Below are positions 37,656 to 55,022 of a stretch of DNA of 64,000 nt, piece after piece (position 1 is the first letter of the stretch; each line of letters starts with the position of its first letter). The DNA comes from Xanthomonas bonasiae (GTDB lineage: Bacteria > Pseudomonadota > Gammaproteobacteria > Xanthomonadales > Xanthomonadaceae). The translations under genes were made by a program, and so were the position numbers. The stretch covers positions 1 through 64,000 of the forward strand of contig NZ_JAFIWB010000027.1 in NCBI RefSeq assembly GCF_017163705.1, in the 5' to 3' direction. Below the pieces are notes generated by a model, which was given only the letters and a program-made list of their open reading frames with translations, was not told the origin of the DNA and did no database searches.

Positions 37656-40600
37656 ATGGAACGCTTCTTTGCCTCGGCTAGGATTGCAAGACCGTTGTGC
37701 CATTTTTTTGGATTGTTTTGTTTGGCATGGTTGACGCTAGACAATACAGCCCTGGCGGCGGGGTCGGCGCGTCAGCAGAATCCTGCATGCGGCTACAACG
37801 CGTGCGATGAGGCTTCTGCGTATGCGGAGTGTAGCGACGAACTATCTTTGGCCAAGAAGGATTCAGGGCTGCAGCCCTGGGTGCAGGGTCTGATCTGCTA
37901 TAACGGCCATGGGCGTAATTCTTACAATATTGTTCACTCGGATCCGTTGGGGCTCGATGCGGGCCTTAACGACTATCAGAATGGATTCGCTTATGTGGCA
38001 GGAACGGCGCCGCTCAATCCTGGGTCGGTCCTGGGTGTGCCTCGCTGTCGGGAGCAGTGCTTCGGCGATCCGATCAATGCAGGTGTCGGCAATAAGTTCG
38101 AGACGCATGTCGAGTACCGGGGGGAAGGGGTTTTCCCGCTGTCCTTGGCATTGACCTATAACAGCTCGCGCGGGATTAGCTATTACCCTGAAGAGTTGAA
38201 GGTGTTCGGTCGAAATCGTACACATAGCTATTTGCGCCGCATCAACTATTTCGATACGTCTTCTGGCCCTGTCGTCTATGTTTCGCGCCCTGGCGGCGAG
38301 GCGCTGCGCTTCACTCAGTCTGGCTCGGGCTGGGTGCCGGATGTACCGGGCGATGGGCAGCTTTCCAGGTCGGTAGATGGCGGAGGAGCCATCACGGGTT
38401 GGCAGTTGCGTGAAAACAAGGGGGGTGTGGAGATTTTTGATGTAAAAGGGCAGTTGTCTGAAATCCAGGATGTGTCTGGATTCAGGCAAGTGCTCGCTTA
38501 CGACGATGCGGGACGCCTTGCTTCTGTAAGGGATGCGGTCGGTCGAGCAATGCGATTCGAATACGGTGCCGACGGGCTGGTTAGTGGCGTGTGGTTGCCT
38601 GATGGGCAGCAGCTACGCTTTTACTACACGGCGAGCAAAGATCTGGAGCGGGTAAGTTATCCGGATGGGCACGAAGTGAAGTATCTGTACGACGAACCCG
38701 ACCATATCAGTGGCTATGCGCCGGCTGGAATGTATACGGGATTCATCGACGAGCAGCAGCGGCGTTACTCGACGACAAGTTATGCAAAGTCGCTCTATGG
38801 AAGCGATGCGAAGGCACTGGGGACATATCTTGGCGATGCCGTGGATCGACACATGGCGGACTATGCCTTCGCCGATGGCGAAACCTATACGACCGCTGCG
38901 GCCATTACATCTAGTCTAGGTAGTGTCAAGACGATCAGTTTTGCCTTGGTCGACGGTATCGTGTCGCCGGTCTCGATCGTGCAATCGTGCGATAGCTGTA
39001 CGCCGCAAGACGTGTCTTATGAATATGCTGCCGACGGACAGGTCTCTAGCATCACGAGATCAGGCGTCATCACGAGTTATGTCTATAACGCCAGGGGTTT
39101 GTTGGATGCCCGTGTAGAGGCGTCCAATGATGCAGCGGGCAAGAAACGGACCACTCAGACCGATTGGAATCCAGATTTCGCCGTCCCGCTAGAGCGCCGA
39201 ATCTACAATGCGGCAGGTGCGTTGACCGAAAAGTCAACATGGACCTACAACGTTCGCGGCCAAGCGCTGACAGCGTCCCGTACAGATCCCGCAGCCGGCA
39301 CGGTCCGCACGTCCACCACGACGTACTGCGAACAGGCCGATCTCGATGCAGGGGCTTGTCCGTTGCTGGGTTTGGTGACCACGGTCGATGGCCCGCGTAG
39401 CGATGTCATGGATCGTCTCGCCTACACGTACTATTCCGCCGACGACAGCACCTGCACCAGCGCGCCGACCATCTGCCCGCACCGCAAGGGCGACCTGTGG
39501 AAAGTCACCAGCGCTTTGGGCCAGGTGACCGAGTATCTGTCCTACGACGGCGCCGGTCGTGTGCTGTCGGTGAAGGACGCCAACGGCACCATCACCGACT
39601 ACAGCTACCACCCGCGCGGCTGGCTGACCGCCAGCAAGGTCCGCGGCGCCGACGACACCAGCGAGAGCGACGACCACATCACCCGCATCGACTACTGGCC
39701 GACCGGCCTGGTCAAGCAGGTGACCCAGCCGGATGGCGCCTTCACCGCTTTCACCTACGACGCGGCGCACCGCCTGACCGATATTGCCGACAACGCCGGC
39801 AACACGCTGCACTACACGCTGGACAACGCCGGCAACCGGGTCAAGGAAGACACCAAGGACGCGGCGGGCACGCTCAAGCGCACCCTGTCGCGGGTCTACA
39901 ACCAGCTCGGCCAGCTGGCCACGCAGGCCACCGCCAGCGGCGACCCGACCGACTTCGGCTACGACGCCAACGGCAACACCACGGCGGTCACCGATGCGCT
40001 GGGGCACAAGACCCAGAACGACTACGACCCGCTCAACCGCCTGGCGCGCACGCTCCAGGACGTGGGCGGCATCGCGGCCGAAACCAAATTCGGCTACGAC
40101 GCGCTGGACAACCTGACCAAGGTCACCGACCCCAAGGGCCTGGACACCACCTACGCCTACAACGGCCTGGGCGACCTGACCAAGCTGACCAGCCCGGACA
40201 CCGGCACGACGACCTACACCTACGACAGCGCCGGCAACCGCGCCACGCAGACCGATGCGCGCAACATCAAGACCACCTACAGCTACGACGCGCTGAACCG
40301 GCTGACCAAGGTCGCCTATCCGACCATCAGCCTCAACGTCACCTACACCTACGACGTCAGCCAGACCACCTGCGCCAGCGGCGAGACCTACGCCATCGGC
40401 CGCCTGTCGCGCATGCAGGACAGTAGCGGCACCACCGACTACTGCTACGACCGCTTCGGCGACCTGGTGCGCAAGGTCCAGACCATCAACGGCAAGGTGT
40501 TCGTGCTGCGCTATGCCTACACCAAGGCCGGCCAGCTGAGCCGCCTGACTTACCCCGACGGCGCAGCGGTGGACTACGTGCGCAACGCCCAGGGTCAAAC

Positions 40601-42092
40601 TACGGAAGTGGGCGTAACCCCGGCCGGCGGCACCCGGCAAGTGCTTCTGGGCAACGCCACCTACTATCCGTTCGGCCCGGTGGCGAGCTGGTCGTACGGC
40701 AACGGCCGCCCGATGCAACGCGTGCTGGACCAGGACTACCGCCCGCTGGCGGTCAGCGACACCCGCAGCGATGGCCTGAGCACCGGCTTCGCCTTCGACC
40801 CGGCCGGCAACCTCAGCGCCCTGACCGCCGCCGGCAACACAGCTCCGGTGGTCAGCCTGGACTACGATGCCCTTGGCCGGTTGACCGCGTTCAAGGACGG
40901 CCCGACCGGCACGGTGATCGATGGCTACAGCTACGACGCCACCGGCAACCGGCTCAGCGCCAAGGTCAACACCAGCACGCAGAGCTACACCTACCCGACC
41001 ACCAACCACCGCCTGAGCGCGGTGGCCGGCACCGCGCGCACCTACGACGCGATCGGCAACACGCTGTCCATCGGCGGCACGGCGCAGGAGTTTGCCTACG
41101 ATGCCACGGGCCGGATGAGCCAGGCCAAGCGTGCGGGCACGGTCGTGATGAAGTACGGCTACAACGGCCGCGGCGAGCAGGTGCGTCGGGTGGACAAGAC
41201 CAACACCTACACGCTGTACGACGAGAGCGGGCACTGGCTGGGCAACTACGACGCCAACGGTGCCGCGCTGCAGCAGGCGATCTGGCTGGACGACTTGCCG
41301 GTAGGCGTGCTGGCCAGTAACAGCCTGCGCTACGTGCAGCCGGACCACCTGGGCAGCCCACGCGCGGTGATCGACCCGACCCGCGACGTAGCGATCTGGA
41401 CCTGGGACTTGAAGGGCGAAGCCTTCGGCAACACCCCACCCGACCAGGACCCGGACAAGGACGGCACCGCGTTCGTGTTCGATATGCGCTTCCCGGGGCA
41501 ACGCTACGACTCTGCTACTGGGTTCAACCAGAACTACTTCCGGGATTACGATCCCGGCACCGGGCGGTATGGGCAGGCCGATCCAATAGGCTTGCGAGCT
41601 GGCCCCAGTATTTATGCGTATACGAATGCTGATCCAGCGGCCTCGCTTGATCCGTATGGACTTCAAGTCAGAGCTCCGAGTGCGCATACCTGGAGAAAAA
41701 ATGCAGGGAATTATTCAAGTATAAGGTCCGACATTCCGTATACTCCTCCGGGCGTAAATATACCGTTGAGTTTCTCAGTGCATGACGCTACTTCAAGCTA
41801 TTTGGAGTCTGCTGCAATAAGTTTGGTCCCGTGGGACTATACGATGTATTGCATCGACGTCTGGTGCATGCGTCGAAAGTCAGAGGACCAATGTTCTATA
41901 TCTGATCAATGGGAAAGAGAGGGGCAGATTGGTGGTTATCAAACTCTCATAAATGTTATGCGTAGAGGATGCCAGTGTAGGAAGGCACTGTTTGGAGATC
42001 AGTTGCCAAGGACTGGGCCTGACCAAGCGGAATTCATGGACGCGTTGGAGATCGCAGCTAGGCTGCGAGAGCTTCAGATGATGAGGAGGTAA
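37656..42092 (+). CDS. RHS-repeat polymorphic toxin with signal peptide and variable C-terminal tip
   Basis: Encodes 1478 residues. An N-terminal signal peptide (~35 residues, ALAAG) is followed by a Cys-containing region, a DUF6531-like segment (FGDPINAGVGNKFETHVEY) and many RHS/YD repeats (YDANGNTTAVTDALG, YTYDSAGNRATQTD). The RHS core ends with the DPIGLRAGPSIYAYTNADP and LDPYGL signature (Asp1332-Leu1336), after which RHS proteins release their toxin. The tip is 142 residues, AT-rich at the DNA level, with five Cys and no fold I recognise. The repeat core shell would encapsulate the tip. A ribosome-binding site AGGAAG precedes the ATG. Composition differs between the first third, the core and the tip. 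The neighbour downstream is the probable immunity gene. Confidence 0.88.
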   Translation: MERFFASARIARPLCHFFGLFCLAWLTLDNTALAAGSARQQNPACGYNACDEASAYAECSDELSLAKKDSGLQPWVQGLICYNGHGRNSYNIVHSDPLGLDAGLNDYQNGFAYVAGTAPLNPGSVLGVPRCREQCFGDPINAGVGNKFETHVEYRGEGVFPLSLALTYNSSRGISYYPEELKVFGRNRTHSYLRRINYFDTSSGPVVYVSRPGGEALRFTQSGSGWVPDVPGDGQLSRSVDGGGAITGWQLRENKGGVEIFDVKGQLSEIQDVSGFRQVLAYDDAGRLASVRDAVGRAMRFEYGADGLVSGVWLPDGQQLRFYYTASKDLERVSYPDGHEVKYLYDEPDHISGYAPAGMYTGFIDEQQRRYSTTSYAKSLYGSDAKALGTYLGDAVDRHMADYAFADGETYTTAAAITSSLGSVKTISFALVDGIVSPVSIVQSCDSCTPQDVSYEYAADGQVSSITRSGVITSYVYNARGLLDARVEASNDAAGKKRTTQTDWNPDFAVPLERRIYNAAGALTEKSTWTYNVRGQALTASRTDPAAGTVRTSTTTYCEQADLDAGACPLLGLVTTVDGPRSDVMDRLAYTYYSADDSTCTSAPTICPHRKGDLWKVTSALGQVTEYLSYDGAGRVLSVKDANGTITDYSYHPRGWLTASKVRGADDTSESDDHITRIDYWPTGLVKQVTQPDGAFTAFTYDAAHRLTDIADNAGNTLHYTLDNAGNRVKEDTKDAAGTLKRTLSRVYNQLGQLATQATASGDPTDFGYDANGNTTAVTDALGHKTQNDYDPLNRLARTLQDVGGIAAETKFGYDALDNLTKVTDPKGLDTTYAYNGLGDLTKLTSPDTGTTTYTYDSAGNRATQTDARNIKTTYSYDALNRLTKVAYPTISLNVTYTYDVSQTTCASGETYAIGRLSRMQDSSGTTDYCYDRFGDLVRKVQTINGKVFVLRYAYTKAGQLSRLTYPDGAAVDYVRNAQGQTTEVGVTPAGGTRQVLLGNATYYPFGPVASWSYGNGRPMQRVLDQDYRPLAVSDTRSDGLSTGFAFDPAGNLSALTAAGNTAPVVSLDYDALGRLTAFKDGPTGTVIDGYSYDATGNRLSAKVNTSTQSYTYPTTNHRLSAVAGTARTYDAIGNTLSIGGTAQEFAYDATGRMSQAKRAGTVVMKYGYNGRGEQVRRVDKTNTYTLYDESGHWLGNYDANGAALQQAIWLDDLPVGVLASNSLRYVQPDHLGSPRAVIDPTRDVAIWTWDLKGEAFGNTPPDQDPDKDGTAFVFDMRFPGQRYDSATGFNQNYFRDYDPGTGRYGQADPIGLRAGPSIYAYTNADPAASLDPYGLQVRAPSAHTWRKNAGNYSSIRSDIPYTPPGVNIPLSFSVHDATSSYLESAAISLVPWDYTMYCIDVWCMRRKSEDQCSISDQWEREGQIGGYQTLINVMRRGCQCRKALFGDQLPRTGPDQAEFMDALEIAARLRELQMMRR

Positions 42093-44557: not shown

Positions 44558-45314
44558 TGGGGTACCGGCGGTGTGTGGGAGGCGACTCGTCTGCCGCGAC
44601 TGGATGGGGCGGAGCGATCCTGATTTCCGCCGATGATGCGGATTGCGGTCAGCGTCTGCGATATGGCAGGAGGAGGAGCTTCGGTCCCGACAGATCAACA
44701 AATCGATGGGGTGACAGGCTCCGTTCGTCGCGACTGAAGTCGCTCCCACAGGGGCTTGCGGCCGGGCTGCCGGGTGCGCTTTGGCAGGAGCATCAGCCCT
44801 AACCGGCCGCCGAAGTTTGCTGCCTCATCGTGTTCTGTGTCGCGGTTGAAACCGCTCCTACAGGGAAGTGTGCGATTGATTGGCTGGGTGCACTGTAGGA
44901 GGGGCTTCAGCCCGGACAGATTGCCAAATCGTTGGGGTGACAGGCTTCGTTCGTCGCGACTGAAGTCGCTCCCACAGGGGCTTGCGGCCGGGCTGCCGGG
45001 TGCGCTGTGGGAGGAACATCAGCCTTAATCGGTTGCCGAAGTCAGCTATTTCTCGTGGTCTGTGTCGCGGTTGAAACCGCTCCTACAAAGAGGCTTGCGG
45101 TTAGCTGGCTGGGTGCACTGTGGGTGGGACTTCAGTCCCGGGGGCTGCCGAAGTCCGCTACTTCGTCGTGGCCTGTGTCGCGGCTGAAGCCGCTCCTACA
45201 GGAAGCCCGCGCCGCGTTCGCTGGTCGCTGGTCGCTGCGGCGTCGGATCGCCCATTCGCATGAGGTACGAATAGCGCTTCGCGCAACCAGCGCCTCATGC
45301 CGGGACGCGCAACC
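44558..45314. repeat. Tandem REP-like hairpin array between convergent genes
   Basis: No gene is seen in these 757 bp. There are at least seven copies of the REP-like hairpin (TCGCGACTGAAGTCGCTCC and variants) near 44728, 44840, 44894, 44954, 45065, 45118 and 45178, in alternating orientation. They are packaged in a longer unit repeated with a ~225-bp period: anchors GTGACAGGCT at 44711 and 44937, and CGCGGTTGAAACC at 44841 and 45066. A partial third unit ends near 45200. The array separates the convergent cutC and sialidase-like genes and may act as a terminator for both. Confidence 0.8.
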
Positions 45315-46406
45315 TCACTCCTTGCCGCCCGGCTTCGCCGCGGCCACGCTCAATCGCTTCGGGTCCAGCACCACGTGCTTGATGCGGGTGCGTTTCCAGG
45401 TGTAGCTGATGTGCACCAGGCCGTCGCGGGTCTGGATGACCGCCGGATAGGAGAATTCGTCCTTGGCGCTGTCTTCCAGGGTCAGCACGCGGGTCCAGTG
45501 GCTGCCGTCGGCGGACAGGGCGACCGCCAGGGTGCCGCGGCCGTCCCACCAGTCCTTGCCGGCTTCGGTGGGGTTGTAGACCAGCAGCGAGCGGCCGTCC
45601 GCCAGGACCACGGCGTCGGTGCCGGAGTTGGGGTTGGCCAGGTCGAGCAGGGTCATCGGTCCCCAGCTGCGGCCGTGGTCGTGCGACCAGGTGCTGAACA
45701 CGTGGTTCTGCTGGCTGCGGCCGATCGCCTGCACGCGGCCGTCGGTGTGCACCAGCACGCTGGGCTGGATCGCGCCGATCCGCGCCGGGTCGTTCAGCGA
45801 CGGGCCGCGGGTCCAGTGCGCGCCGTTGTCGTCGGACCACTCCATGTGCGCGACCCAGCCGGCGTCTTCGCTGCTGCTGGGGCTGAGGATGCGGCCGTCG
45901 GCCAGTTGCACCGGCTTGTTCTTGATCGGGCCGAGGATGCCCTCGGGCAGGCGCTCGGGCGCAGACCAGCGCACGCCGCCATCGCGGGAAGTAATCTGCA
46001 TGCCCCACCAGCGCTTCGGGTCCGGACCGACCTTGTAGAACAGCCGCAGCGGTCCCTTGGCCGGCTGGAACAGCACAGGGTTCCATGCCGGCAACGGCGC
46101 GCCCTTTGGCTGCTTGCCGTCGGCCACGCGTTGCGCCGGCTGCCAGCCGTGCGCGTCGCGCCGTGCGACCCAGATGCCGACGTCGTCGGCGCCCTCGTGG
46201 CGCCCGCCGAACCACGCGGCGAGCAGGCCGTCGCGGGTTTCCAGCAGGGTCGAGGCATGGCACTGCGCGGTCGGCGCCGCGGTGTTGACGAATTCGCTGT
46301 AGACGATCGGCGAGGGCAGGCCGAGCGGCGGTGCGGTCGGCGCGGGCGCGGCGATCGCGCGCACGGCGAACAGCGAAAGGAGTGGGAGCAGCGTGGGGTA
46401 CATCAT
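45315..46406 (-). CDS. Secreted BNR-repeat sialidase-like protein
   Basis: Encodes 363 residues with a signal peptide (~20 residues, AVRAIAA). The mature protein is a six-bladed-propeller type with at least four Asp-box motifs: SRDGGVRW, SDDNGAHW, SHDHGRSW and SADGSHW. It matches BNR/sialidase-like exo-glycosidase families of plant-associated bacteria; the substrate need not be sialic acid. The N-terminal HASTLLETRDGLLAAWFGGRHEG fits the family. The start is one of two adjacent ATG codons (46406 or 46403). It is convergent with cutC and lies near the glycosylasparaginase, suggesting a shared theme of extracellular glycan breakdown. Confidence 0.82.
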   Translation of the reverse strand: MMYPTLLPLLSLFAVRAIAAPAPTAPPLGLPSPIVYSEFVNTAAPTAQCHASTLLETRDGLLAAWFGGRHEGADDVGIWVARRDAHGWQPAQRVADGKQPKGAPLPAWNPVLFQPAKGPLRLFYKVGPDPKRWWGMQITSRDGGVRWSAPERLPEGILGPIKNKPVQLADGRILSPSSSEDAGWVAHMEWSDDNGAHWTRGPSLNDPARIGAIQPSVLVHTDGRVQAIGRSQQNHVFSTWSHDHGRSWGPMTLLDLANPNSGTDAVVLADGRSLLVYNPTEAGKDWWDGRGTLAVALSADGSHWTRVLTLEDSAKDEFSYPAVIQTRDGLVHISYTWKRTRIKHVVLDPKRLSVAAAKPGGKE

Positions 46407-46851
46407 GGTGGTCCGGTCCTGTGCCGGTTAAAGAGATACCTATTTATCATCAATTAAATACCACATGCTGACTGTGTCGGCAGCAAACGGGTATCCGACA
46501 CCATCGAGGACCTGCGAGCCGAACCGCCCGCTCTCGCCGATCCGCTGGCTGGCTGCCCTTGGCCTGACCGCGCTGGCCGCGCCGCGCGCGCTGGCGGATA
46601 GCTTCTCCCGAGGGAAGCCGTCGTCGCAGCAGTTCGGGGTCCAGGTCGCGCAGGCCGACGCGATCGGGCATACGAAGATCGATCACTTCCCGCGGTCATG
46701 GCCTCGCGCGTGCGCCTGAACCTCACTGCCCAGCGCCGACGCGTCGCACATCCGCGCGTTCCAGTTGTTCGACGTGGGCGCTGCCGCGCGCTGAATCCGC
46801 CCGTCTGCGCCACGCACAGGCCGCGCCTGGGCGCCCGCGGGGCGCGGACTT
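46407..46851. other. Non-coding stretch upstream of the sialidase-like gene
   Basis: An A/T-rich patch at 46434-46468 (TATTTATCATCAATTAAAT) is the likely promoter of the minus-strand sialidase-like gene. The rest, to the reb promoter at 46852, has short open frames on both strands with no recognisable family or good start signal; a decayed gene is possible but not demonstrated. Confidence 0.45.
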
Positions 46852-46881
46852 TTTCACATCGCGGCGAAGGCTGCGTTTAGG
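46852..46881 (+). promoter_or_regulatory. Predicted ECF-type promoter 1 of the reb region
   Basis: TTTCACA at 46852-46858 and CGTTTAGG at 46874-46881, separated by exactly 15 bases. The same two boxes and spacing occur at 50662 and 53102, upstream of two reb units. The -10 CGTT core is usual for ECF sigma factors. It lies 95 bp before the ATG at 46977 and ~500 bp before the amidohydrolase gene. Confidence 0.6.
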
Positions 46882-46976
46882 ACAGTGTCGCCGAGCATCG
46901 CGCGATGCCTGCAGTGCGCTGCGCGGACGAGGCATGCGCGAGTCGATGGCGATACGTTTCCGAACGGAGCATCGCC

Positions 46977-47339
46977 ATGGTCAGCAGGGCAGGTGGACGC
47001 CGATCCCGTTTCCGGTCGGCATGGACGCGTTGCAGGGTCCGGCGCCGTGCGCGCCTGCGCCAGGCATGGTGCGTGGCGCTGGCGTGCATCGCGGTCATGC
47101 TGGCGCCCTCCTGGGATACGCGTGCGCAGTCGCTGTCGGCCATGGCCGAGGCTTGCCGCGATCCATTGCGGACCGTCCGCGAGCAGTCGATCACCCCTCA
47201 GCCTCCCGGCGCGTCGCTGGCGCCGACCAGGCGCGACGATTCGATCGATGCACCGCAACGCGTCGCGCTCGCCGCCGGCCGTCCGCGCTCGCGCTGCGCT
47301 GCGGACCCGGAGCGATCCGGCTTTCATTCTCGTCCCTAG
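46977..47339 (+). CDS. Possible small membrane or secreted protein, first ORF after reb promoter 1
   Basis: Encodes 120 residues if real. A strongly basic, Arg-rich N-terminus is followed by one hydrophobic segment (AWCVALACIAVMLAP) ending near TRAQS, then an Arg/Pro-rich tail without a recognisable fold. A GGAG site lies 9 bases before the ATG, and the distance from the predicted promoter is similar to that at the first rebB. It ends 38 bp before the amidohydrolase ATG. Against it: unusual composition for a mature protein and no family. It may instead be an untranslated leader. Confidence 0.35.
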   Translation: MVSRAGGRRSRFRSAWTRCRVRRRARLRQAWCVALACIAVMLAPSWDTRAQSLSAMAEACRDPLRTVREQSITPQPPGASLAPTRRDDSIDAPQRVALAAGRPRSRCAADPERSGFHSRP

Positions 47340-47377
47340 GCGGCGGATGCCGCCCGTCTCTTCCTAAAGGATCCGCC

Positions 47378-49579
47378 ATGGCCTATTTCAAGCTCGCCGA
47401 ACAAACCCAGCTGACCCGCTACGTCTGCGATTACCACAGCCACTTCACCGGCATCCTGCCGACGCAGCGTAAGCGGCTCGACGATGAAGGCGCATCGCTG
47501 GCGCAGTTGCTGGCGCAGAGGTTCTATCCCGGCGATGCGCATCGGCTTGCCAAGGGCGAGCTGAAATTGTTCGACTACGCGTTGTCGCTGATGATCGACA
47601 GCAAAAGCAATCCGTTCGCGCGGTTGCTGGCAAAGCAAAACCGCGCCGATTACGAGCGCGCCGAATGCGTGGCAGAGAACCTGTATATCGCCTGCCAGGT
47701 GTTGGCGGCGAACGCGGGCTATCTGCCTGAAGAGCTAGCCCTGCCGCCGCAGTCGCCAGCCCTGTATTCGCTGGTCGGCCGCGAGATCGTCGCGCCGGCG
47801 CTGGCGTCCGCGGCGGGTCCCGATGTCCGCTTGCGCGAATTGGTGCGCTACTTCAACAACAAGCTCTACAGCGCCAACAAGTACACCCCGTTCGACGACG
47901 CCTACAAGTTGCGCGGCCATTTCGTAAAGCAACTGTGCCAAGGCGATCCGGCCAAGTACGACACCTGGAACGAAGCGCAGAAGAATGACTACCAGGCGTG
48001 GGCGAACGCCACGTTCGACTACCTGCGCGAGGACGGTGTGCTGTTGACCCAAAGCGCCGCCACCGAGGACGAGATTCCGCAATTGGCCAGGTTGGCGCAG
48101 GCGTATAACACCGCAAAGGGCACCGACTACCGCTTGCTGGTGCACACGCCGCACCATTACATGGCAAAGGGCGAACTGGCCAGCTATCTGGACGCCAAGG
48201 TCAGGCCGTTGCTGGTCGGCGAGGGTAGCCCCGTCGTCGTCGGGCTGGACCTGCTTGGCGCGGAGAACAAGGTCGGCAACTACGCCGAATTGTTCAAATG
48301 GTTGCAGGCCAATGTCGAAGCACTGGGCGCCAACTTCGGCGACGACGGCGAAGGCAAGCGTGCGCGTCGCATGATCGTGCATATCCACTGCGGCGAAGGC
48401 AGCGGCTTCGGCGCGGAGAACCGTTCGGTCATCGGCTATTACTTCCACGAAGCCGGCGATCCGGATCCGGCGTTCTACGCGGCATTGTCCGCACATGTGC
48501 TCGACGCATGCGGCGCAGCGTACGCCAAGCGCAGCAATACGGTGCGCGGAACGCGCGGTACCGCCATCCCTCAGGCGCTGTTCGAGGAATTGTTCGCCAA
48601 TACCGCATTCAGCCATGCCGGGCACGTGCTGCGTCGCTTCGACATCAATGCGCCGCTGTCGCGCGAACTGGCCGGCTACAACGCCAAGCGCAACGTGATG
48701 GCCTTGAGCGAGGCGCTGGACCTGATCCAGGTGCCGTTCAAGGAAGACTACTACCGCAACCTGGTGGAAGAAAACCCGCTGTACGCGTTCCGTCTCGGCC
48801 ACGACTACTACTACCGTAGCTATATGGTGTCGCGCTACCCGTGGCTGGCCTTCGACACCAACTTGGGCAGCAATGCGATCACCGGCGCCTCGGCGCAGTT
48901 CGATTCGGTGCATGGCTACCGGCTCAATCGCGGCTACCGGCATCTGGACGGCTACATCGATACCGACGTGCTGAATGAGGCCGGAAACGCCGTGTTGAGC
49001 ATGGACGCGCGCAGCCTCAGCAGCAGCCAGATCGCCAGGTTCATTGAACTCAGTCGGTCTAAAGATGATCTTCCGACAACGCTGCAAAAAAATCGTGATT
49101 TCCTGCTGCAGCAACTCAAGGGCGCGCTGGGACCGATCAAGGCTGCGATACCGGAGGAGGCGCTGTTCGCAACCTATTGCTTGCTGACCGAATACTGCGC
49201 CGGCGAACAGGATGTCGCCGCCTTGCGCTACCAAGCGATGGTGCGCGTCCTGCAGGTGTTTCAGAACTGGCGCTCGTACCTGCTCGGTGCCGACGGCCAG
49301 GGCGTGGAGCATACCGGCGTGCAACATGAATTCCTGCGTATGCTGGTGCTGCTTGTCTACAAGATGCTGTTGATCAACCAGGGCGAAATTCCAGTGGCAG
49401 TGCTGCAGGCGCTGGCCGCGCTGTTGCAACAGCTGGCACGGGGCTACTGGACGGCGACGATTGGCCCGCTGGACGACCTTCAGGACGCTGCCGATCCGCT
49501 GGGCCTGGAATCGCTGGATGGCTTCAAGGGTCCCGCCTCGGTGGTCGTGGTGCGGCGCACGCCGCCAGCCCAGCCGTGA
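47378..49579 (+). CDS. Large adenosine-deaminase-like amidohydrolase in the reb locus
   Basis: Encodes 733 residues, more than twice the size of an ordinary adenosine deaminase. Elements of the deaminase TIM barrel are visible: H20-S-H22 in CDYHSHFTG (metal HxH), MIVHIHCGEGSG with His337 and Glu340 (the HAGE-type catalytic motif), candidate third His in HAGH (413/416) or RLGHD (475), and WLAFDTNLGSN with Asp493 (the NTDDP-like strand). The extra length is helical insertions and a C-terminal ~200-residue helical domain. A good AAAGGAT site precedes the ATG. Size and layout recall RdrB of the RADAR defence system, but no RdrA ATPase is here. The substrate is unknown; a role with R-bodies is inferred from position and promoter. 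Confidence 0.65.
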   Translation: MAYFKLAEQTQLTRYVCDYHSHFTGILPTQRKRLDDEGASLAQLLAQRFYPGDAHRLAKGELKLFDYALSLMIDSKSNPFARLLAKQNRADYERAECVAENLYIACQVLAANAGYLPEELALPPQSPALYSLVGREIVAPALASAAGPDVRLRELVRYFNNKLYSANKYTPFDDAYKLRGHFVKQLCQGDPAKYDTWNEAQKNDYQAWANATFDYLREDGVLLTQSAATEDEIPQLARLAQAYNTAKGTDYRLLVHTPHHYMAKGELASYLDAKVRPLLVGEGSPVVVGLDLLGAENKVGNYAELFKWLQANVEALGANFGDDGEGKRARRMIVHIHCGEGSGFGAENRSVIGYYFHEAGDPDPAFYAALSAHVLDACGAAYAKRSNTVRGTRGTAIPQALFEELFANTAFSHAGHVLRRFDINAPLSRELAGYNAKRNVMALSEALDLIQVPFKEDYYRNLVEENPLYAFRLGHDYYYRSYMVSRYPWLAFDTNLGSNAITGASAQFDSVHGYRLNRGYRHLDGYIDTDVLNEAGNAVLSMDARSLSSSQIARFIELSRSKDDLPTTLQKNRDFLLQQLKGALGPIKAAIPEEALFATYCLLTEYCAGEQDVAALRYQAMVRVLQVFQNWRSYLLGADGQGVEHTGVQHEFLRMLVLLVYKMLLINQGEIPVAVLQALAALLQQLARGYWTATIGPLDDLQDAADPLGLESLDGFKGPASVVVVRRTPPAQP

Positions 49580-49602
49580 CCTCCGGGCAAGGGGACATCG
49601 CG

Positions 49603-49833
49603 ATGGACGAGATCACCGAGTACCTGTGGCAAGAGCAACTCGCGCAACCGCCAGCCGTGGCGGCGGACACGCCGCCGGCGGACGCCGCAGCGACTACGCC
49701 GCCGCAGTCGTCGGCGCAGTCGTCGGCGCCGGAGCGGGAGCAGCCCTATCAGCCCAACCTGGAACAGTTGCTGCGTGCATTGAGCAACCCCGAAGTGCGC
49801 GAGGCCCTGGTCAAGCTGCTGCAGCCTCGCTGA
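49603..49833 (+). CDS. Small Pro/Ala-rich protein following the amidohydrolase
   Basis: Encodes 76 residues: an acidic N-terminal helix (MDEITEYLWQEQLAQ), a disordered Pro/Ala/Ser middle and a C-terminal helix (NLEQLLRALSNPEVREALVKLL). No family is recognised. The ATG at 49603 has an AGGGGA site; a GTG at 49576 overlapping the previous stop would add 9 residues. It forms one transcription unit with the amidohydrolase, since a terminator hairpin follows at 49857. The pattern of short helix, linker and helix suggests an adaptor or assembly helper. Confidence 0.65.
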   Translation: MDEITEYLWQEQLAQPPAVAADTPPADAAATTPPQSSAQSSAPEREQPYQPNLEQLLRALSNPEVREALVKLLQPR

Positions 49834-49856
49834 TCCACGCCGACACGTTCCGATCC

Positions 49857-49892
49857 GGGCCTGACTGCATGCGCAGCAGGCCCTTCTTTTTG
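49857..49892 (+). terminator. Rho-independent terminator after the amidohydrolase unit
   Basis: A stem GGGCCTG ... CAGGCCC with a short loop is followed by TTCTTTTT. It closes the unit that begins at reb promoter 1. Confidence 0.8.
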
Positions 49893-50081
49893 CGTGCGCG
49901 CGCGACAGGAAACTTGGTCGCTGCGGCGCACGCGCGTATGCATTCGTAGACAAAGCAACACGGCGTGCCGCATGTGGCGCGGCCGGCCGCCAATGCGGCG
50001 TGGCGTTGTCACCCAGGGAACAGCTATTGCCTGCAAGCCCCGCAGAGACTCGTTGCACAAGGGACTTCGGGAGTGTGTGCG

Positions 50082-50645
50082 ATGGATGTGGCAACGGGGA
50101 AAGAGGAAGGGGATGCCGGCCGTTTCGCCAGGGCCGACGAGATGTTCACGCGGGCATGGCGCAACGCTCTGCCGGATCTGCGCCGGCGTGCGTTGCGGCT
50201 GGCCAACGGTCGCCTGGATGCTGCGGAAGACCTGCTGTCGGATACCGCGGTGAAGGCGCTGCTGTTCATGCGCCGCTCGCCGGAGGCGATGACCGATCCG
50301 CAGGGATTCCTGTTCGTGGTGTTGCGCCACGTGTTTCTGGACGCGGTCAGGCGTCGTCGCAGCGGCGAGCCGCTGGACCGGCAACACGAGGCGCACGACG
50401 TGGACACCGTGGCCGACCAGGGCATGACCGCGCTGCAGCGCGCCGAGTTGAGCGATCAGATGGAGCGCGTGGTCGCCGCGGTGGCGGCGCTGACCCGCGA
50501 ACAGCGGCGCCTGTTCGGCTACCGCTTCGTCGAGGAGTTGCCGTATCCGGTGATCGCCAATCTGCTCAGCATCAACCAGCCGCTGGTGCGCAAGCGCGTG
50601 GAGTTGCTGCGCAAGCGCCTGCGCCTCGCGCTGGTGGCGGAGTGA
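50082..50645 (+). CDS. ECF-like sigma-70 family factor of the reb locus
   Basis: Encodes 187 residues. Region 2 is seen in DLRRRALRLANGRLDAAEDLLSDT and FLFVVLRHVFLDAVRRRR (core binding and -10 recognition), and region 4 in LTREQRRLFGYRFVEELPYPVIANLL followed by the recognition helix NQPLVRKRVELLRKRL. No anti-sigma gene is adjacent. The ATG at 50082 has GGGAG upstream; a longer reading from 49965 lacks support. The first rebB follows, and three copies of a matching promoter (TTTCACA-N15-CGTTT) flank the locus, making this sigma the likely activator. Reb clusters in other bacteria also often contain sigma factors. Confidence 0.85.
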   Translation: MDVATGKEEGDAGRFARADEMFTRAWRNALPDLRRRALRLANGRLDAAEDLLSDTAVKALLFMRRSPEAMTDPQGFLFVVLRHVFLDAVRRRRSGEPLDRQHEAHDVDTVADQGMTALQRAELSDQMERVVAAVAALTREQRRLFGYRFVEELPYPVIANLLSINQPLVRKRVELLRKRLRLALVAE

Positions 50646-50661
50646 GCACGCGCGGCCAGGG

Positions 50662-50691
50662 TTTCACAAACCGCCCACGGCGGCGTTTTCA
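50662..50691 (+). promoter_or_regulatory. Predicted ECF-type promoter 2, upstream of the first rebB
   Basis: TTTCACA at 50662-50668, 15 bases, then CGTTTTCA at 50684-50691. Over the 32 bases from the preceding GG to the final A it agrees with promoter 3 at 26 positions. It lies 17 bp after the sigma gene stop and 113 bp before the rebB ATG at 50805. Confidence 0.7.
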
Positions 50692-50804
50692 TTCAACGCC
50701 GGGCCGGCGCGGGCTGCGGCATCGCGGGCACTGCGGCTGACCCACGGCTCCGTCCGTGACGACCGCAGCGCCTCCCGGCAGGCGACTTACGAAGGAACAG
50801 GTTC

Positions 50805-51038
50805 ATGGCAGACAACACGCTCGTCAATTCGCAGATCACCGATGCGGTCACCCAGACCAACGTCAAGGTGGTGGCCGAGGCGCCCGCCCAGGCGATCGCC
50901 TCGCTGTACCAGGTCTCCAGCCACTCCACCGGGCTGGCGTTGCAGAACGCGGTGTACAGCCAACAGGCGCTCAACCAGATCTCCACCGCGGTGGTGTCCA
51001 AGGCGGTGGCGCTGATCATGGCGATCGGCGAGAAGTGA
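50805..51038 (+). CDS. R-body protein, RebB family (short)
   Basis: Encodes 77 residues. The RebB pattern is clear: NSQITDAVTQTNVKVVAEAPAQAIASLYQ, then a Ser/His-rich turn and NAVYSQQALNQISTAVVSKAV. RebB-type proteins polymerise into coiled ribbons (R-bodies) that extend suddenly, for example on pH change, and in Caedibacter are toxic to sensitive paramecia. This copy lacks the C-terminal extension of the two later paralogues and may be a structural or nucleating subunit. An AAGGA site precedes the ATG, and ECF-type promoter 2 lies upstream. Confidence 0.9.
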   Translation: MADNTLVNSQITDAVTQTNVKVVAEAPAQAIASLYQVSSHSTGLALQNAVYSQQALNQISTAVVSKAVALIMAIGEK

Positions 51039-51097
51039 CGCGGCCCGCATAGCGCCGGGCGCTGCCGCGGCGTCGTTCTATCCTTCAGGAGAGTGGC

Positions 51098-51994
51098 ATG
51101 TGGCCTTTCAACAGCAAGACCAACCCGCCGCCAGCGGCCGCCGCAGCGCCGGCGCCCGCGGTAGCGCTGCCGGCGCCGGGTGCTGCGGCGGTATCCGGCG
51201 CACCGACGGCGAGCGCTGCGGCGGCAGACGGGCCCGTGCCGACAGCGGACGGCGCGGCGCCATCGGCCCCCGCATCCGCGCCCGCGCCCACCGTTGCCGC
51301 TGCCGCTGAGGCGGTGCCTGCCAGTGTACCGACGGCTGCGCCGACGGGAAGCGCTGGCGGCACCGAGGCAGGCAGTCCCGATGCGGCATCCGCATCGACC
51401 GCCACCGACGCCGCGGCGGCCAGTGCCGGCGGCGCTGCGGCGGCCCCGCCCAGCGATGGCGATGCTGTGTCGCCTTCGCCTTCGCCGGCAGCACCGACCT
51501 CGCCTCCACCGCCACCCTCAATGCTGAGGACGCTCAACGCACGCATGATGGATCAGGCGGCTGCAGCGACACCGGCCAGCGACGCGCTCAACAGCAAGAT
51601 CGTGCAGGCGGTGCGGCTCACCAATGCCGAAACGATGGCGTACGCGCCGTCGCAGATCGTGATCGGTTCGGACATGCTGATCAGCCAGGCGGCCGGCCTG
51701 GTCGCGCAGTCCGCGGCGGTCTATTTCGACGGCGTCAGCAAGATGGCGCTGGCCAGCCAGGGCGTGCTGATCAAGCAGATGACCGAGAACCTGGCAGAGA
51801 ACAAGCTCGAGCAGGCCGCCGAGGATGCGCTGGGCGTGCTGGCGACCGATGTGCTGGTCGGTGCGGCCGCGGCGGTGGCGGCCGCGGCCGGCGCGCTGGA
51901 AGCGGAGTCGGCCAGTTTCGCCATCGACAAGATCGACCAGAGCATCGCCAAGTACGCCGACCTGATGCGCGGGCGCAAGTCGGCCAGCAGCTGA
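51098..51994 (+). CDS. RebB-like domain on a long Pro/Ala linker
   Basis: Encodes 298 residues. About 140 N-terminal residues are almost only Ala, Pro, Ser, Gly, Thr and Asp (low complexity). A RebB-like region begins near residue 165 (NSKIVQAVRLTNAETMAYAPSQ), matching the ITDAVTQxNVKV pattern of the short Reb proteins, and continues in long helices (KMALASQGVLIKQMTENLAENKLEQAAEDALGVLA) with an Ala-rich hydrophobic stretch ([19 protein letters not shown]). It may anchor, cap or organise the R-body ribbon. It sits 59 bp after the first rebB with a CAGGAGAG site, clearly in the same operon. The exact role is unknown. Confidence 0.75.
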   Translation: MWPFNSKTNPPPAAAAAPAPAVALPAPGAAAVSGAPTASAAAADGPVPTADGAAPSAPASAPAPTVAAAAEAVPASVPTAAPTGSAGGTEAGSPDAASASTATDAAAASAGGAAAAPPSDGDAVSPSPSPAAPTSPPPPPSMLRTLNARMMDQAAAATPASDALNSKIVQAVRLTNAETMAYAPSQIVIGSDMLISQAAGLVAQSAAVYFDGVSKMALASQGVLIKQMTENLAENKLEQAAEDALGVLATDVLVGAAAAVAAAAGALEAESASFAIDKIDQSIAKYADLMRGRKSASS

Positions 51995-52034
51995 GCGCGC
52001 GCACCGCGCGAGACACCCGCCATCGGGAGCCACC

Positions 52035-52604
52035 ATGCAGGACACCCCAGAATCCGAACTCGATCCGTTGTACGGCTTCGCCCAGCGCTGGCTGGGGCGC
52101 GAACTGAGCCCGATCGAACGCGTGCAGTTGCAGGCTTTCGCGCAGTCGGCCAATGCCGCGCAGAGCAAGCCGTCGGCCAAGGCGCGGGAGATGTCGAAAT
52201 CGCTGATCGACGCGGAGCGCCAGCGCGTGGACGGCTTGATCGCGCAGATGATGCACGGCATGCAGGACGCCGCGCGCGGCGTCGAGCTGGCCGACGGCGC
52301 CAGCGGCCACGCGGTGCTCGATGCGGTCGCCGCCGCGCCGTCGCTGGACGCGTTGCGTCCGGGCCGGCTGCGCCCGCTGCAGAGCGGCGAGACCAGCGGC
52401 AACCAGCTGCTGGTGGCGCAGATCGCCGATCGCCTGGGCAACCTGGTGCGCAAGGAAGTGCAGGCCTGCTTCGATCGCGAGTTCGGCAACCTGGCGCAAC
52501 AGATGCAGGCGGTGGTGGACGCGGCGCGCGCGGTCGGATTGGTCGATGCGCCGCCGTCGGCAGAGGCGGGTGAAAGTACCCCGGCAACGCCCGCTTCGGG
52601 CTGA
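52035..52604 (+). CDS. Reb-operon helical protein of unknown function
   Basis: Encodes 189 residues, mostly alpha-helical with charged heptads: PLYGFAQRWLGRELSPIERVQLQAFAQSA at the N-terminus, a Lys/Glu-rich middle (KAREMSKSLIDAERQRVDGLI) and a C-terminal helix (QIADRLGNLVRKEVQACFDREFGNLAQQMQAVV). No signal peptide or membrane segment. The family was not recognised. A GGGAG site precedes the ATG and it lies 40 bp after the RebB-linker gene, so it belongs to the same operon and probably helps R-body assembly or regulation. Confidence 0.75.
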   Translation: MQDTPESELDPLYGFAQRWLGRELSPIERVQLQAFAQSANAAQSKPSAKAREMSKSLIDAERQRVDGLIAQMMHGMQDAARGVELADGASGHAVLDAVAAAPSLDALRPGRLRPLQSGETSGNQLLVAQIADRLGNLVRKEVQACFDREFGNLAQQMQAVVDAARAVGLVDAPPSAEAGESTPATPASG

Positions 52605-53101
52605 TCCATCCGAACGCGCATGGCCGTGCATGTCCGCTTCGTCGGCGGATGTGCGCGGCCGGGCGTGTTTGCGTACCTGCGGTGCGGTGGTGCGGTGGTG
52701 CGGCGGCGGCAATGCTGCGGTATGTGCTGCGTAATTCGTGCCGGATGCGCGTGCGCACATAGCTGCCGCAGCAGTGGCGATACGGCGATGGGACCGATCG
52801 ATGATGCACAGGTCGGCATTGCATGGGCTACCGAATGCGATACCTCGGTAGCCGTCTGTGGGCCATCGCATGCGCCTGTAGTAGGTAGCCGCTGCCATGA
52901 CGCCAAGCGCACGTGGCGATACCCGCCGTCGCGAGACAGGCGATGCAGCGGCAAGGGTGGCGGTACCGCAGGCCATGCAGTTCGCTCGCACTAGCGCCGC
53001 CGTCGCCGTCGCCGATCCGGCGCGACGGCGCAAGTGTTTGCCGGCGACCCTGCCGGCCTGCGCCAAACCCGGTGGAACAGCGAGACAAGTGCGGCGCCTG
53101 G
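52605..53101. other. Non-coding stretch before the second reb unit
   Basis: About 500 bp without a convincing gene. It contains a GGTGCGGT microsatellite run (about 52680-52712) and an imperfect GGCTACC/GGTAGCC inverted pair near 52828-52855. The second reb promoter begins at its right end. Confidence 0.5.
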
Positions 53102-53131
53102 TTTCACAGTCCGTGCACTGCGCCGTTTTCA
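53102..53131 (+). promoter_or_regulatory. Predicted ECF-type promoter 3, upstream of the paired rebB genes
   Basis: TTTCACA at 53102-53108, 15 bases, then CGTTTTCA at 53124-53131, 44 bp before the rebB ATG at 53176. It is the closest match to promoter 2, sharing both complete boxes and the spacing. Confidence 0.7.
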
Positions 53132-53175: not shown

Positions 53176-53496
53176 ATGGCATTTCCAACCGCCGTCAACG
53201 ACCAGATCACCGATGCGGTCACCCAGTCCAACGTCAAGGTCATCGGCGAAGCGCCGGCCTTTGCGATGGCGTCGATCTACCAGAGCATGGCGCACTCGAC
53301 CGGCATCCTGTTCGAGAACGCCGTCTCGGCGCAGCAGCAGCAGAACACGCTGGCGCAGGCCGCGGCCAACCAGGGCGTGATGCAGATCTACAGCCTGGAT
53401 ACCACCGCCGCCGCCGGCGCCACCGAGAAGGTCGCGCAGACCGGTGTCTCCGACAACCTCACCAGCCTGCTGACCGTGCTCAACGCGTTCAAGTAA
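53176..53496 (+). CDS. R-body protein, RebB family (paralogue 1 of tandem pair)
   Basis: Encodes 106 residues with the full RebB pattern: NDQITDAVTQSNVKVIGEAP, FAMASIYQSMAHSTGILFENAV, a QQQQNTLAQAA segment and a C-terminal extension (GVMQIYSLDTTAAAGATEK, SDNLTSLLTVLNAFK). It is expected to be a main structural subunit of the R-body ribbon. CAGGAG precedes the ATG. It is very similar to the next gene, the product of tandem duplication, and is driven by ECF-type promoter 3. Confidence 0.93.
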   Translation: MAFPTAVNDQITDAVTQSNVKVIGEAPAFAMASIYQSMAHSTGILFENAVSAQQQQNTLAQAAANQGVMQIYSLDTTAAAGATEKVAQTGVSDNLTSLLTVLNAFK

Positions 53497-53582: not shown

Positions 53583-53933
53583 ATGGCTTATCCCACCGCA
53601 GTCAACAACCAGATCACCGATGCCGTCACCCAGTCCAACGTCAAGGTCATCGGCGAGGCGCCGGCCTTCGCCATGGGCTCGATCTACCAGAGCCTGGCCC
53701 ATTCCAGCGGCATCCTGTACGAGAACGCGGTCGCTTCCCAGCAGCAGCAGAACACGCTGGCGCAGGCGGCCAACAACCAGGGCGTGATGCAGATCTACAG
53801 CCTGGACACCACCGCCGCGGCGGGGGCGTCGGAGAAGATCGCGCAGACCGGCGTGTCCGACAACCTCACCAGCCTGATGACCGTGCTGCAGGCGTTCAAG
53901 GGCGGCGGCGTCGCGGGTTTGAACAACCCCTGA
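53583..53933 (+). CDS. R-body protein, RebB family (paralogue 2 of tandem pair)
   Basis: Encodes 116 residues. It differs from the preceding paralogue at scattered conservative positions (for example MGSIYQSLAHSSGILYENAV) and by a Gly-rich tail (GGGVAGLNNP). R-bodies are usually built from more than one Reb subunit, so the pair may copolymerise. It lies 86 bp downstream with a strong GAGGAGCG site and no separate promoter box, so it is probably cotranscribed with paralogue 1. Confidence 0.93.
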   Translation: MAYPTAVNNQITDAVTQSNVKVIGEAPAFAMGSIYQSLAHSSGILYENAVASQQQQNTLAQAANNQGVMQIYSLDTTAAAGASEKIAQTGVSDNLTSLMTVLQAFKGGGVAGLNNP

Positions 53934-54161: not shown

Positions 54162-55022
54162 ATGGACTTTCCTGCAGTGGCCACCCTGGAGGCCTCAGAC
54201 ATCGTCGCTGCGGCCCATGTCGGCAACGACCTGCAAACGCCCGCGGCCCATACCGGCCATCGGACACTGCTGGAGCGCTCGATGCTGTTCCACGACCTGC
54301 CTGCCGCGTTGCTCGACCACCTGCTCGCACATGCCAGCGAATGCGATCTGGCGCCGGGCAGCGTGCTGTTCTTCAAGCACGACCCGAGCAGCTTCGTCGG
54401 CGTGGTGGTGCGCGGGCGCCTGTACAAGGTGCTGTACGGCGCGGACGGACAGGAACTGATCGTCGGCACCATCGAGCCGGGCGGCCTGGTGGACGAAGCC
54501 GCGCTGCTCGAGCCGCACGGGCGCAGCTTCACCGCGATCGCATTCGGCGCCAGCACCGTGCTCAAGCTGTCGCGCCGGCACTTCGCGCCCCTGATGGAAT
54601 CGCCGTTGCTGCAGCAGCGCATCGAAGCGCTGCTGCGCGTGCGCCTGCGACAGGCCCTGGACAGCCTGGAAAGCATGTGCCTGCACCGGCTGGAAGTGCG
54701 CCTGGCGCGCTACGTACTGCGCCAGCTGGAGGTGCAGGAGTGGCAGCGCGGCGGCAGCTGCGCGATCGTGCTGCCGCCCAACCAGAGCATCCTGGCGGCG
54801 ATGCTCAACGTCAGCCGCTCCAAGCTCAATGCCCAGCTGCAGCAATGGAAGCGCAACGGCCTGGTCAGCCGCCGCCGCAACCTGCTGCGCATCCACGACC
54901 TCGACGCGCTGTGCGCCAAGGCCTACCTGCACGCCAACGCACCGCTGCGCACGCTGGCCTGGCACGGCGAGGACGGACTGCGACCGGCGCCGTGCCTGCC
55001 GTTGCTTCCGTGCAGTGGCTAG
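54162..55022 (+). CDS. Crp/Fnr-family transcription regulator at the end of the reb locus
   Basis: Encodes 286 residues. A ~40-residue lead is followed by a cyclic-nucleotide-binding-fold domain (MLFHDLPAALLDHLLAHA, APGSVLFFKHDPSSFVGVVVRGRLYKVL, GTIEPGGLVDEAALL), a dimer helix and a C-terminal winged helix (LPPNQSILAAMLNVSRSKLNAQLQQWKRNGLV). The cAMP-contact residues of Crp are not clearly kept, and the Cys set of Fnr is absent, so the signal is unknown. The ATG at 54162 has AAGGGGGAG upstream; one at 54138 would add 8 residues. Its place after the rebB pair suggests it tunes reb expression, but it lacks the ECF promoter box. Confidence 0.85.
   Translation: MDFPAVATLEASDIVAAAHVGNDLQTPAAHTGHRTLLERSMLFHDLPAALLDHLLAHASECDLAPGSVLFFKHDPSSFVGVVVRGRLYKVLYGADGQELIVGTIEPGGLVDEAALLEPHGRSFTAIAFGASTVLKLSRRHFAPLMESPLLQQRIEALLRVRLRQALDSLESMCLHRLEVRLARYVLRQLEVQEWQRGGSCAIVLPPNQSILAAMLNVSRSKLNAQLQQWKRNGLVSRRRNLLRIHDLDALCAKAYLHANAPLRTLAWHGEDGLRPAPCLPLLPCSG

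Follow-up and report, generated by a model that had tools for sequence, protein, structure and literature searches.

The 64,000-nucleotide stretch of Xanthomonas bonasiae DNA analysed here (positions 1 to 64,000 of contig NZ_JAFIWB010000027.1, assembly GCF_017163705.1, forward strand; "the window" below) carries a locus for R-bodies, coiled protein ribbons that spring open, can harm other cells and have been described in killer symbionts of Paramecium, in a plant symbiont and in Pseudomonas aeruginosa. Three copies of a short box lie ahead of the two units of R-body (reb) genes and of an enzyme gene in this locus; very probably they are promoters for the product of the 50082 gene, a sigma factor. 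The 54162 gene encodes a Crp/FNR-like regulator, which would in turn activate the sigma gene from a palindrome (50007-50022) in the class II position. The sequences and positions of these elements, their genome-wide rarity, their conservation and their co-occurrence are direct observations, and it is from these that the wiring is read.

As we picture it, the Crp/FNR-like protein would bind the palindrome and activate the sigma gene, sigma holoenzyme would start transcription at boxes 1-3, and reb transcription would run on into the Crp gene and close a positive loop, the output being coordinated synthesis of Reb ribbon proteins, accessory proteins and an enzyme. Such a feedback switch, running from regulator to sigma factor to reb genes and back, would explain rare-cell R-body expression in P. 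aeruginosa. The elements of the locus are as follows, with the evidence for each in brackets.

46852 to 46878, + strand: box 1, TTTCACA-N15-CGTTT, ahead of the enzyme unit (pattern scan of window and genome)
46977 to 47336, + strand: possible small open reading frame (ORF) of 120 amino acids between box 1 and the enzyme gene; may be only leader (tblastn)
47378 to 49579, + strand: putative metal-dependent hydrolase of 733 amino acids, recurrent reb-cluster cargo (motifs HxH, HxHCGE and FDTN)
49603 to 49833, + strand: ORF of 76 amino acids downstream of the enzyme gene (matches in genomes G012, G004 and G001; sub-threshold DUF1641 match)
49857 to 49895, + strand: hairpin and T-tract, probable terminator (RNA fold -21.8 kcal/mol, z -4.0; aligned in 8 Xanthomonas)
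50007 to 50022, + strand: palindrome TGTCAC-CCAG-GGAACA, predicted operator of the Crp/FNR-like regulator (pattern scans)
50044 to 50051, + strand: AGAGACTC, candidate -10 for sigma gene transcription, about 30 bp past the palindrome centre (inferred)
50082 to 50645, + strand: reb sigma factor, 187 amino acids, extracytoplasmic function (ECF) type with sigma2 and sigma4 only (Pfam, NCBIfam)
50662 to 50688, + strand: box 2, predicted promoter of the first reb unit (pattern scan of window and genome)
50805 to 51038, + strand: rebB-type gene 1, 77 amino acids (PF11747, 4.6e-27)
51098 to 51994, + strand: accessory reb-cluster protein with low-complexity N-terminus (homologue in 59 of 78 reb loci; no Pfam match)
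52035 to 52604, + strand: accessory reb-cluster protein (homologue in 34 of 78 reb loci; no Pfam match)
53102 to 53128, + strand: box 3, predicted promoter of the tandem reb unit (pattern scan of window and genome)
53176 to 53496, + strand: rebB-type gene 2 (PF11747, 5.6e-29)
53583 to 53933, + strand: rebB-type gene 3 (PF11747, 1.8e-28)
54162 to 55022, + strand: Crp/FNR-like regulator, 228 bp past rebB3 on the same strand (HTH_Crp_2, 7.6e-14; cNMP_binding, 9.2e-14)

The box in the window, the genus and three proteobacterial classes

An initial annotation of the window had placed TTTCACA, exactly 15 bases and CGTTT at 46852, 50662 and 53102, and a scan finds all three there, on the + strand, against no match in 100 dinucleotide shuffles. 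The whole-genome scan that it proposed as a check, run over the 5,383,649 bases (89 contigs) of the same Xanthomonas genome, has all three of its matches at the reb locus, the motif not being common elsewhere, and the reversed pattern has none. The looser TTCACA-N15-CGTT has five matches in the genome, three here and two elsewhere; its reversed control gives four, which puts the two extra matches at chance level. The claimed identity of 26 in 32 positions between boxes 2 and 3 holds, and box 1 shares 20 with box 2 and 17 with box 3. Box 1 had been described as lying upstream of an 'amidohydrolase' unit; its position holds, though the gene starts 500 bp past the box and its product matches no Pfam or NCBIfam family. 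With this distance and its differing flanks, box 1 is less certain than the other two.

Among the 20 genomes of the genus that were searched (our own included), a sigma orthologue of at least 84% identity is present in 8 and RebB in 14. Conservation in relatives, on which the initial annotation had made its proposal depend, is found in all 8 sigma carriers, each of which has the motif at its reb locus and three BTCACR-N15-CGTY boxes in the stretch fetched. The orthology of G018's first box to box 1 is uncertain, and the enzyme gene is missing from G005 and G018; all five other enzyme-carrying Xanthomonas loci have a box at the place matching box 1 (G012, G004, G015 and G001, and, as TTCACG, G011). 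A wider scan of 100 genomes (our own and 99 relatives) gave 23 matches to the exact motif, 19 at reb loci and 4 elsewhere; its reversed control gave 18 in total and none in our own genus. The six genomes of the genus without reb genes have no exact-motif match. In G006 and G016, which carry a far sigma (31-34% identity), the sigma gene, the two reb units and a cargo gene are each preceded by TTCACR-N15-CGTC. G006 also has an unlinked second reb remnant (L097, G006:C1:1611000-1620000) with a TTCACA-N15-CGTC box at 3524, possibly a distant member of the regulon.

Four genomes of the genus have reb genes and no sigma orthologue; G013 keeps one box, and G003, G008 and G019 have no consensus box. 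These loci (L093 in G013, L094 in G019, L095 in G008 and L096 in G003) form a natural decay series: the second RebB match is partial in G008, G013 and G019, G003 has a single RebB match, and the box is intact in G013, reads TTCCACA in G019 and TTCCGCA in G008, and was not found in G003.

Beyond the genus, 78 distinct reb loci were fetched with RebB alignment, from the best 80 of 526 RebB matches. Leaving aside reb genes less than 150 bp from the locus start or on the minus strand, and scoring the box within 220 bp upstream of each unit, BTCACR-N15-CGTY precedes 116 of 138 reb units, over 77 loci of alpha-, beta- and gammaproteobacteria, and any other spacer from 10 to 20 bases gives 0-3 units (three at 16, none at 13, 14, 17 or 18). 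When spacers of any length from 5 to 30 are allowed, exact TTCACA...CGT occurs 74 times at 15, at most five times at any other length, and never at 13, 14, 16, 17 or 18; in shuffles the exact core TTCACA-N15-CGT is met in a mean of 0.125 of the 138 leaders, and in 2 at most. Good conservation over the 116 sites is confined to the two elements, the -35 element being TTCACA or TTCACG at most of them, and the 15-base spacer is hardly conserved.

This pattern bears on two other explanations of the boxes. They might be functionless leftovers of the duplication of a reb unit, given that the genes behind boxes 2 and 3 are homologous and the two boxes share those 26 of 32 positions. What is conserved over so many sites, however, is the two elements and hardly the spacer, and boxes also precede unrelated genes (those of the sigma factor, the Crp-like regulator and the enzyme); we regard duplication as extremely improbable. 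The box region might instead belong to transcription terminators: the spacer of box 2 folds into a short hairpin (50671-50683), a CCGCC/GGCGG stem before CGTTTTC, box 1 is preceded by a GC hairpin and a T-run, and a terminator scan lists both 50671-50683 and 46831-46847. The same scan does not list the box 3 spacer, the spacers of other species share little sequence, and the boxes lie 57-190 bp (median 77 bp) upstream of the assigned reb starts, all of which makes terminators barely credible.

Two further locus sets were fetched after the motif had been fixed. In the first, a sigma profile was run against 298 genomes from the genus to which G470 (source of L141, a Pseudomonas gingeri record) belongs; 11 have the sigma, and in all 11 TTCACA-N15-CGTT lies between the sigma stop and the next reb gene. 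The second consists of 6 plasmid records, opened out of 12 with a RebB match. All three that have a sigma by profile (Ruegeria pomeroyi, Burkholderia pyrrocinia and B. arboris) have a box ahead of the first reb unit and ahead of the later ones; those of Azospirillum, Eleftheria and Bealeia have no sigma match in the fetched stretch and no consensus box before their reb genes, and the Azospirillum locus has a one-mismatch box.

Five Pseudomonas reb loci (L141, L145, L158, L163 and L164, from P. gingeri, P. bananamidigenes, P. fuscovaginae and two others) lack both the reb sigma and the box and would be under a different control. Two of them, L145 and L163, were considered as sigma loci and rejected, the matches being weak (scores 32-36) and no reb-family sigma being present in those genomes, and are counted as sigma-less. 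In certain Paraburkholderia, Burkholderia and Dyella loci an extra box faces away from the Crp gene (L103 at 9787, L116 at 9795, L121 at 9958, L119 at 10023 and L117 at 9547, all on the + strand); the gene downstream of it is a candidate for a further member of the regulon.

The sigma factor and the proposed switch before its gene

The ECF-like sigma gene recognised at 50082 by the initial annotation is borne out by Pfam (Sigma70_r2, 4.4e-7; Sigma70_r4_2, 7e-7) and by NCBIfam (TIGR02937, 1.6e-17, above its cut-off). The designation ECF-type suits the domain make-up and the -10. The protein has sigma2 and sigma4 only, and the -10 has a CGT core (CGT[TC], at fixed spacing before those 116 of 138 reb units). 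The usual ECF -35 is of the AAC type, and that of the reb box is not. Among the neighbours scanned with Pfam and NCBIfam no anti-sigma gene was recognised by family match, the 76-amino-acid ORF at 49603 matching no family above threshold. The -35 comes closest to that of ECF41, a known exception of similar type, whose promoter is TGTCACA-n16-CGTC and which targets genes for a decarboxylase, oxidoreductase or epimerase (COE) (PMC3426412; statements on this and the other cited papers concern the parts of their text that were available). The two have in common a -35 ending in TCACA, a -10 CGTC and a similar spacer, and ECF41's is the closest promoter to the reb box. The reb sigma is nonetheless not a member of ECF41, since the large C-terminal extension of that group is missing: its 187 amino acids end just past region 4. 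The spacer is also 15 rather than n16, and in place of COE genes the boxes here precede reb units, Crp and sigma genes and an enzyme without family match.

The 50082 sigma is one of a separate family of sigma factors that accompanies R-body loci. A profile (A2) built from 24 reb sigmas separates these (E 4.6e-57 or better) from other ECFs (7.7e-17 or worse) in the 26 genomes searched. Sigma gene and box also keep company: over the 77 loci (L155, with its reb gene at a contig edge, being dropped) 62 have both, 2 the sigma only, 3 the box only and 10 neither (Fisher 1.6e-8). L126, whose sigma gene is broken over two frames, counts in this table as having sigma and box and is left out of the sigma alignment and the palindrome count.

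The last base of the -10 follows the sigma as well. In 56 sigma rows it is T only in 28, C only in 26 and mixed in 1, with 1 row having no box, and the choice between CGTT and CGTC tracks the sigma clade, not the host: Xanthomonas and Luteimonas strains with an alpha-like sigma (L149, L144 and L168) have CGTC and their relatives CGTT, and Lysobacteraceae with the other sigma clade have CGTC instead of CGTT. Covariation at the level of a single sigma residue was tried and is not claimed; position 80 is V in 28 of 28 T rows and another residue in 25 of 26 C rows, but with two tree changes an independent-pairs test is powerless.

From the co-occurrence over the 77 loci and in 11 of 11 later Pseudomonas loci, the reb sigma most likely reads the box, as the initial annotation had proposed; the -10 base following the sigma clade and both of the later locus sets point the same way. 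It is very unlikely that the boxes belong to another sigma factor, for example the housekeeping one or an ECF with genome-wide reach. Boxed loci in which no reb sigma was found (L115, L131 and L159) and the box of G013, where there is no sigma orthologue, could be read in that sense; yet ten reb loci in genomes without a reb sigma have no box, the box sequence is nearly absent from the rest of the genome, and L115, L131 and L159 are on short contigs (records of 12.7, 4.0 and 4.8 kb). Weighing against the reb sigma as reader of the boxes are, besides these cases (the single box of G013 stands beside a partly decayed reb locus), the loci L160 and L165, which carry the sigma and have no box at the reb unit examined, the 22 of 138 reb units without a consensus box, and the sigma-less plasmid locus L242, in which a one-mismatch box lies about 120 bp upstream of the reb gene. 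On the sigma tree, the T/C split of the -10 amounts to only two changes, and the locus set, made up of the best 80 of 526 matches, leans towards near relatives, so that its counts are not independent; L100, L108 and L149 are also genomes of the genus set.

The sigma gene itself has no box in the 350 bp upstream, an absence noticed from the start, and the idea that another signal switches it on gains support from a palindrome that accompanies the Crp-like gene. In the window this is TGTCACCCAGGGAACA at 50007-50022. The general pattern, TGTYAC-N4-GTRACA, was read off 16 sigma upstream regions printed side by side, which belong to the 56 rows counted; with one mismatch allowed, it is found upstream of the sigma gene in 28 of the 29 rows whose locus has a strong Crp match vs 4 of 27 without (Fisher 1.4e-10; the shuffle expectation for the count of 28 in 29 is 0.03), usually 70-77 bp upstream of the assigned sigma start. 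A tight form, TGTCACCYNRGKRACA, has its single match in our own genome upstream of the sigma gene and is found at the same place in G001, G004, G005, G011 and G012, the remaining sigma carriers among the 21 genomes searched. In the later Pseudomonas set the palindrome is present in 8 of 8 loci with an adjacent Crp gene and in 0 of 3 without a Crp match, and the plasmid loci with a sigma have a perfect TGTTAC-N4-GTAACA in 3 of 3. Less favourable to the palindrome as the regulator's site are the four loci that have it without a strong Crp match (L114, L127, L140 and L142, the last two with a weak one), the three off-locus sites of the tight form in the 21 genomes (one each in G001, G007 and G008), and the chance level of the looser palindrome in the window taken alone, where its 2 matches are both strands of one site and 21 of 100 shuffles reach 2.

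Class II activation by Crp/FNR proteins serves here as the comparison system: in both, a TGTNAC-N4-GTNACA-type palindrome lies about 30 bp upstream of a -10, here a candidate one; the target in the present case is a sigma gene, and binding is predicted. A CAGACTC-like block ((C)AGACTC) is found about 30 bp past the palindrome centre in many loci, the Xanthomonas and Lysobacter upstream regions among them, a distance that would come close to that of class II activation. In Xanthomonas, the sigma gene and box 3 both have a conserved GACAA block upstream; it was considered as the regulator's site and set aside, as it was found in few other loci and the neighbouring palindrome held.

TCACA is also the E. 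coli CRP half-site, and with a Crp-family gene in the cluster the boxes could themselves be taken for operators of the Crp-like regulator and no sigma promoters at all. We think this very unlikely: the box is not palindromic and has its second element, CGTY, at exactly 15 bases, it is present in loci without a Crp match in the fetched stretch (Roseibium and Pannonibacter, for example), and it is the separate, true palindrome that tracks the Crp gene.

The regulator, the proposed loop and the putative cargo enzyme

The product of the 54162 gene has both the cNMP-binding and the HTH_Crp domain of the Crp/FNR family. Of 28 loci in which Crp is matched strongly, 17 have the Crp gene 168-455 bp behind a reb unit, on the same strand, and 11 have it elsewhere; a sigma box precedes it in 0 of the 17 and in 10 of the 11. 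The later Pseudomonas loci have a sigma box near the 5' end of the Crp frame in 8 of 8, and in the Burkholderia plasmids it lies just inside the annotated Crp gene (B. pyrrocinia) or just before the Crp frame (B. arboris). With either a box before it or a place behind the reb genes, the regulator gene could thus be reached by the sigma factor, through a promoter of its own or through run-on from the reb operon. The window has the latter layout, in which the Crp gene could be reached by read-through: the 54162 gene has no box of its own (a + strand consensus scan of the stretch finds boxes 1-3 only), and the terminator scan gives no + strand terminator-like site between rebB3 and the Crp gene. 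Part of this intergenic stretch folds strongly, which makes read-through less certain. Feedback is also opposed by the weak-Crp loci L140 and L142, which have no Crp-gene box, and by Ruegeria, which has none either (best 3 mismatches).

Among the C-type rows of the other sigma clade, 17 of 26 have the box ahead of the sigma gene itself, vs 0 of 28 T-type rows. We lean, with some reserve, towards a portable mutual-feedback switch common to the R-body loci of alpha-, beta- and gammaproteobacteria, in which the Crp/FNR-like protein would act on the sigma gene through TGTYAC-N4-GTRACA and the sigma on the reb genes, the cargo and the regulator (by its own box or by read-through), and in which the sigma of the other clade, mostly without a strong Crp match, would act on itself.

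Homologues of the 47378 enzyme occur in 14 of the 78 reb loci (in Lysobacter, Luteimonas, Dyella, Pseudomonas mangiferae, Azoarcus and one Lysobacteraceae), in each case between the first and the later reb genes; the window differs in having the enzyme gene ahead of the sigma gene, with its own box. The initial annotation had called the enzyme deaminase-like. Its motifs HxH, HxHCGE and FDTN resemble those of adenosine deaminase, and H20/H22, H337/E340 and D493 are invariant in an alignment of 8 homologues; no family or fold match backs the name. The fold was approached with AlphaFold2 (8 sequences), which gave a mean predicted local distance difference test (pLDDT) of 60.9 and a predicted template modelling score (pTM) of 0.57, and with this low-confidence model Foldseek found nothing in the PDB at E<=0.001, returning weak TIM-barrel and amidohydrolase rows only. 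One or both HxH histidines are lost in the homologues L101 and L123 (Lysobacter antibioticus records), which are possibly inactive relatives.

For the small ORF at 46977, tblastn finds matches in 4 other Xanthomonas loci (63-84% across the part matched); it has no Pfam match, and a longer form from 46905 has no NCBIfam match. At the other end of the unit, the hairpin at 49857-49895 probably separates the box 1 unit from the sigma gene as a terminator; it is absent from the list of the terminator scan. Upstream of box 1, a BNR-repeat sialidase-like protein is encoded at 45315-46406 on the - strand (PF13088, 7e-94), with a match in 10 of the 14 Xanthomonas reb stretches compared (our own included), even where the sigma has been lost. 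Several near-identical short repeats (gtcgcgactgaagtcgctcccacag / gcggttgaaaccgctcctacag), seen by eye at 44700-45200, are an interspersed element family adjoining the locus, and an ORF of 1478 amino acids at 37656-42092 has, by eye, an RHS/YD-repeat look, no family search having been made.

Relation to known R-body loci

The R-body locus of the window is recognised as such from its genes alone, with three PF11747 genes, including a tandem pair, a sigma gene and a cyclic-nucleotide-binding regulator, as in Group 2 reb loci. In the synteny of that group Raymann et al. 2013 (PMC3583457) likewise have a sigma (HP2.3) and a cyclic-nucleotide-binding regulator (HP2.4) beside the reb genes, proposed as possible regulators; their available text deals with association only, without DNA signals, direction of control or feedback. 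The PA14 reb cluster (PMC8322103; PMC3406104) is also alike, having a Crp/FNR-type gene beside a FecI-like sigma gene and reb genes, with both needed for rebP1. It differs in that the Xanthomonas Crp gene is behind the reb genes and the enzyme unit has its own box, and the available parts of the two papers contain no promoter element, operator or wiring. The RcgA/FecI2-type layout, with a sigma box before the reb genes and a Crp palindrome before the sigma gene, is found in the window, and 8 of the 11 Pseudomonas-group loci with a reb sigma have the order Crp-sigma-reb and both DNA signals. PA14_27700, a Crp/FNR-type gene adjoining the ECF gene, carries the name rcgA in PMC8322103, and for it Feinbaum et al. 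(PMC3406104) touched on an anti-sigma idea; the palindrome would favour an ordinary DNA-binding activator instead.

R-body genes, their sigma and Crp neighbours (2013) and the need for both in PA14 (2021) are already known. What is new, as far as our searches reach, is the box, the palindrome, their conservation over three classes and the loop that they imply; neither signal is described for reb loci in the open-licence papers searched.

In PA14, rebP1 is on in 0.26% of cells, and its promoter needs both the sigma FecI2 and RcgA (PMC8322103); auto-regulation was seen for alternative sigma factors of PA14, FecI2 being one of those studied (PMC4362757). The rarity and double dependence of rebP1 and this auto-regulation all agree with a mutual or self-activating loop. 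If the proposed feedback loop exists, bistability could follow from it, and it would account for the expression of rebP1 in only about 0.26% of PA14 cells. The two short DNA signals turn an association of sigma, Crp and reb genes into a testable wiring diagram, and they predict members of the regulon, including cargo genes without assigned function, from sequence alone. R-body carriers often seem to control their R-body genes by one conserved two-step DNA switch.

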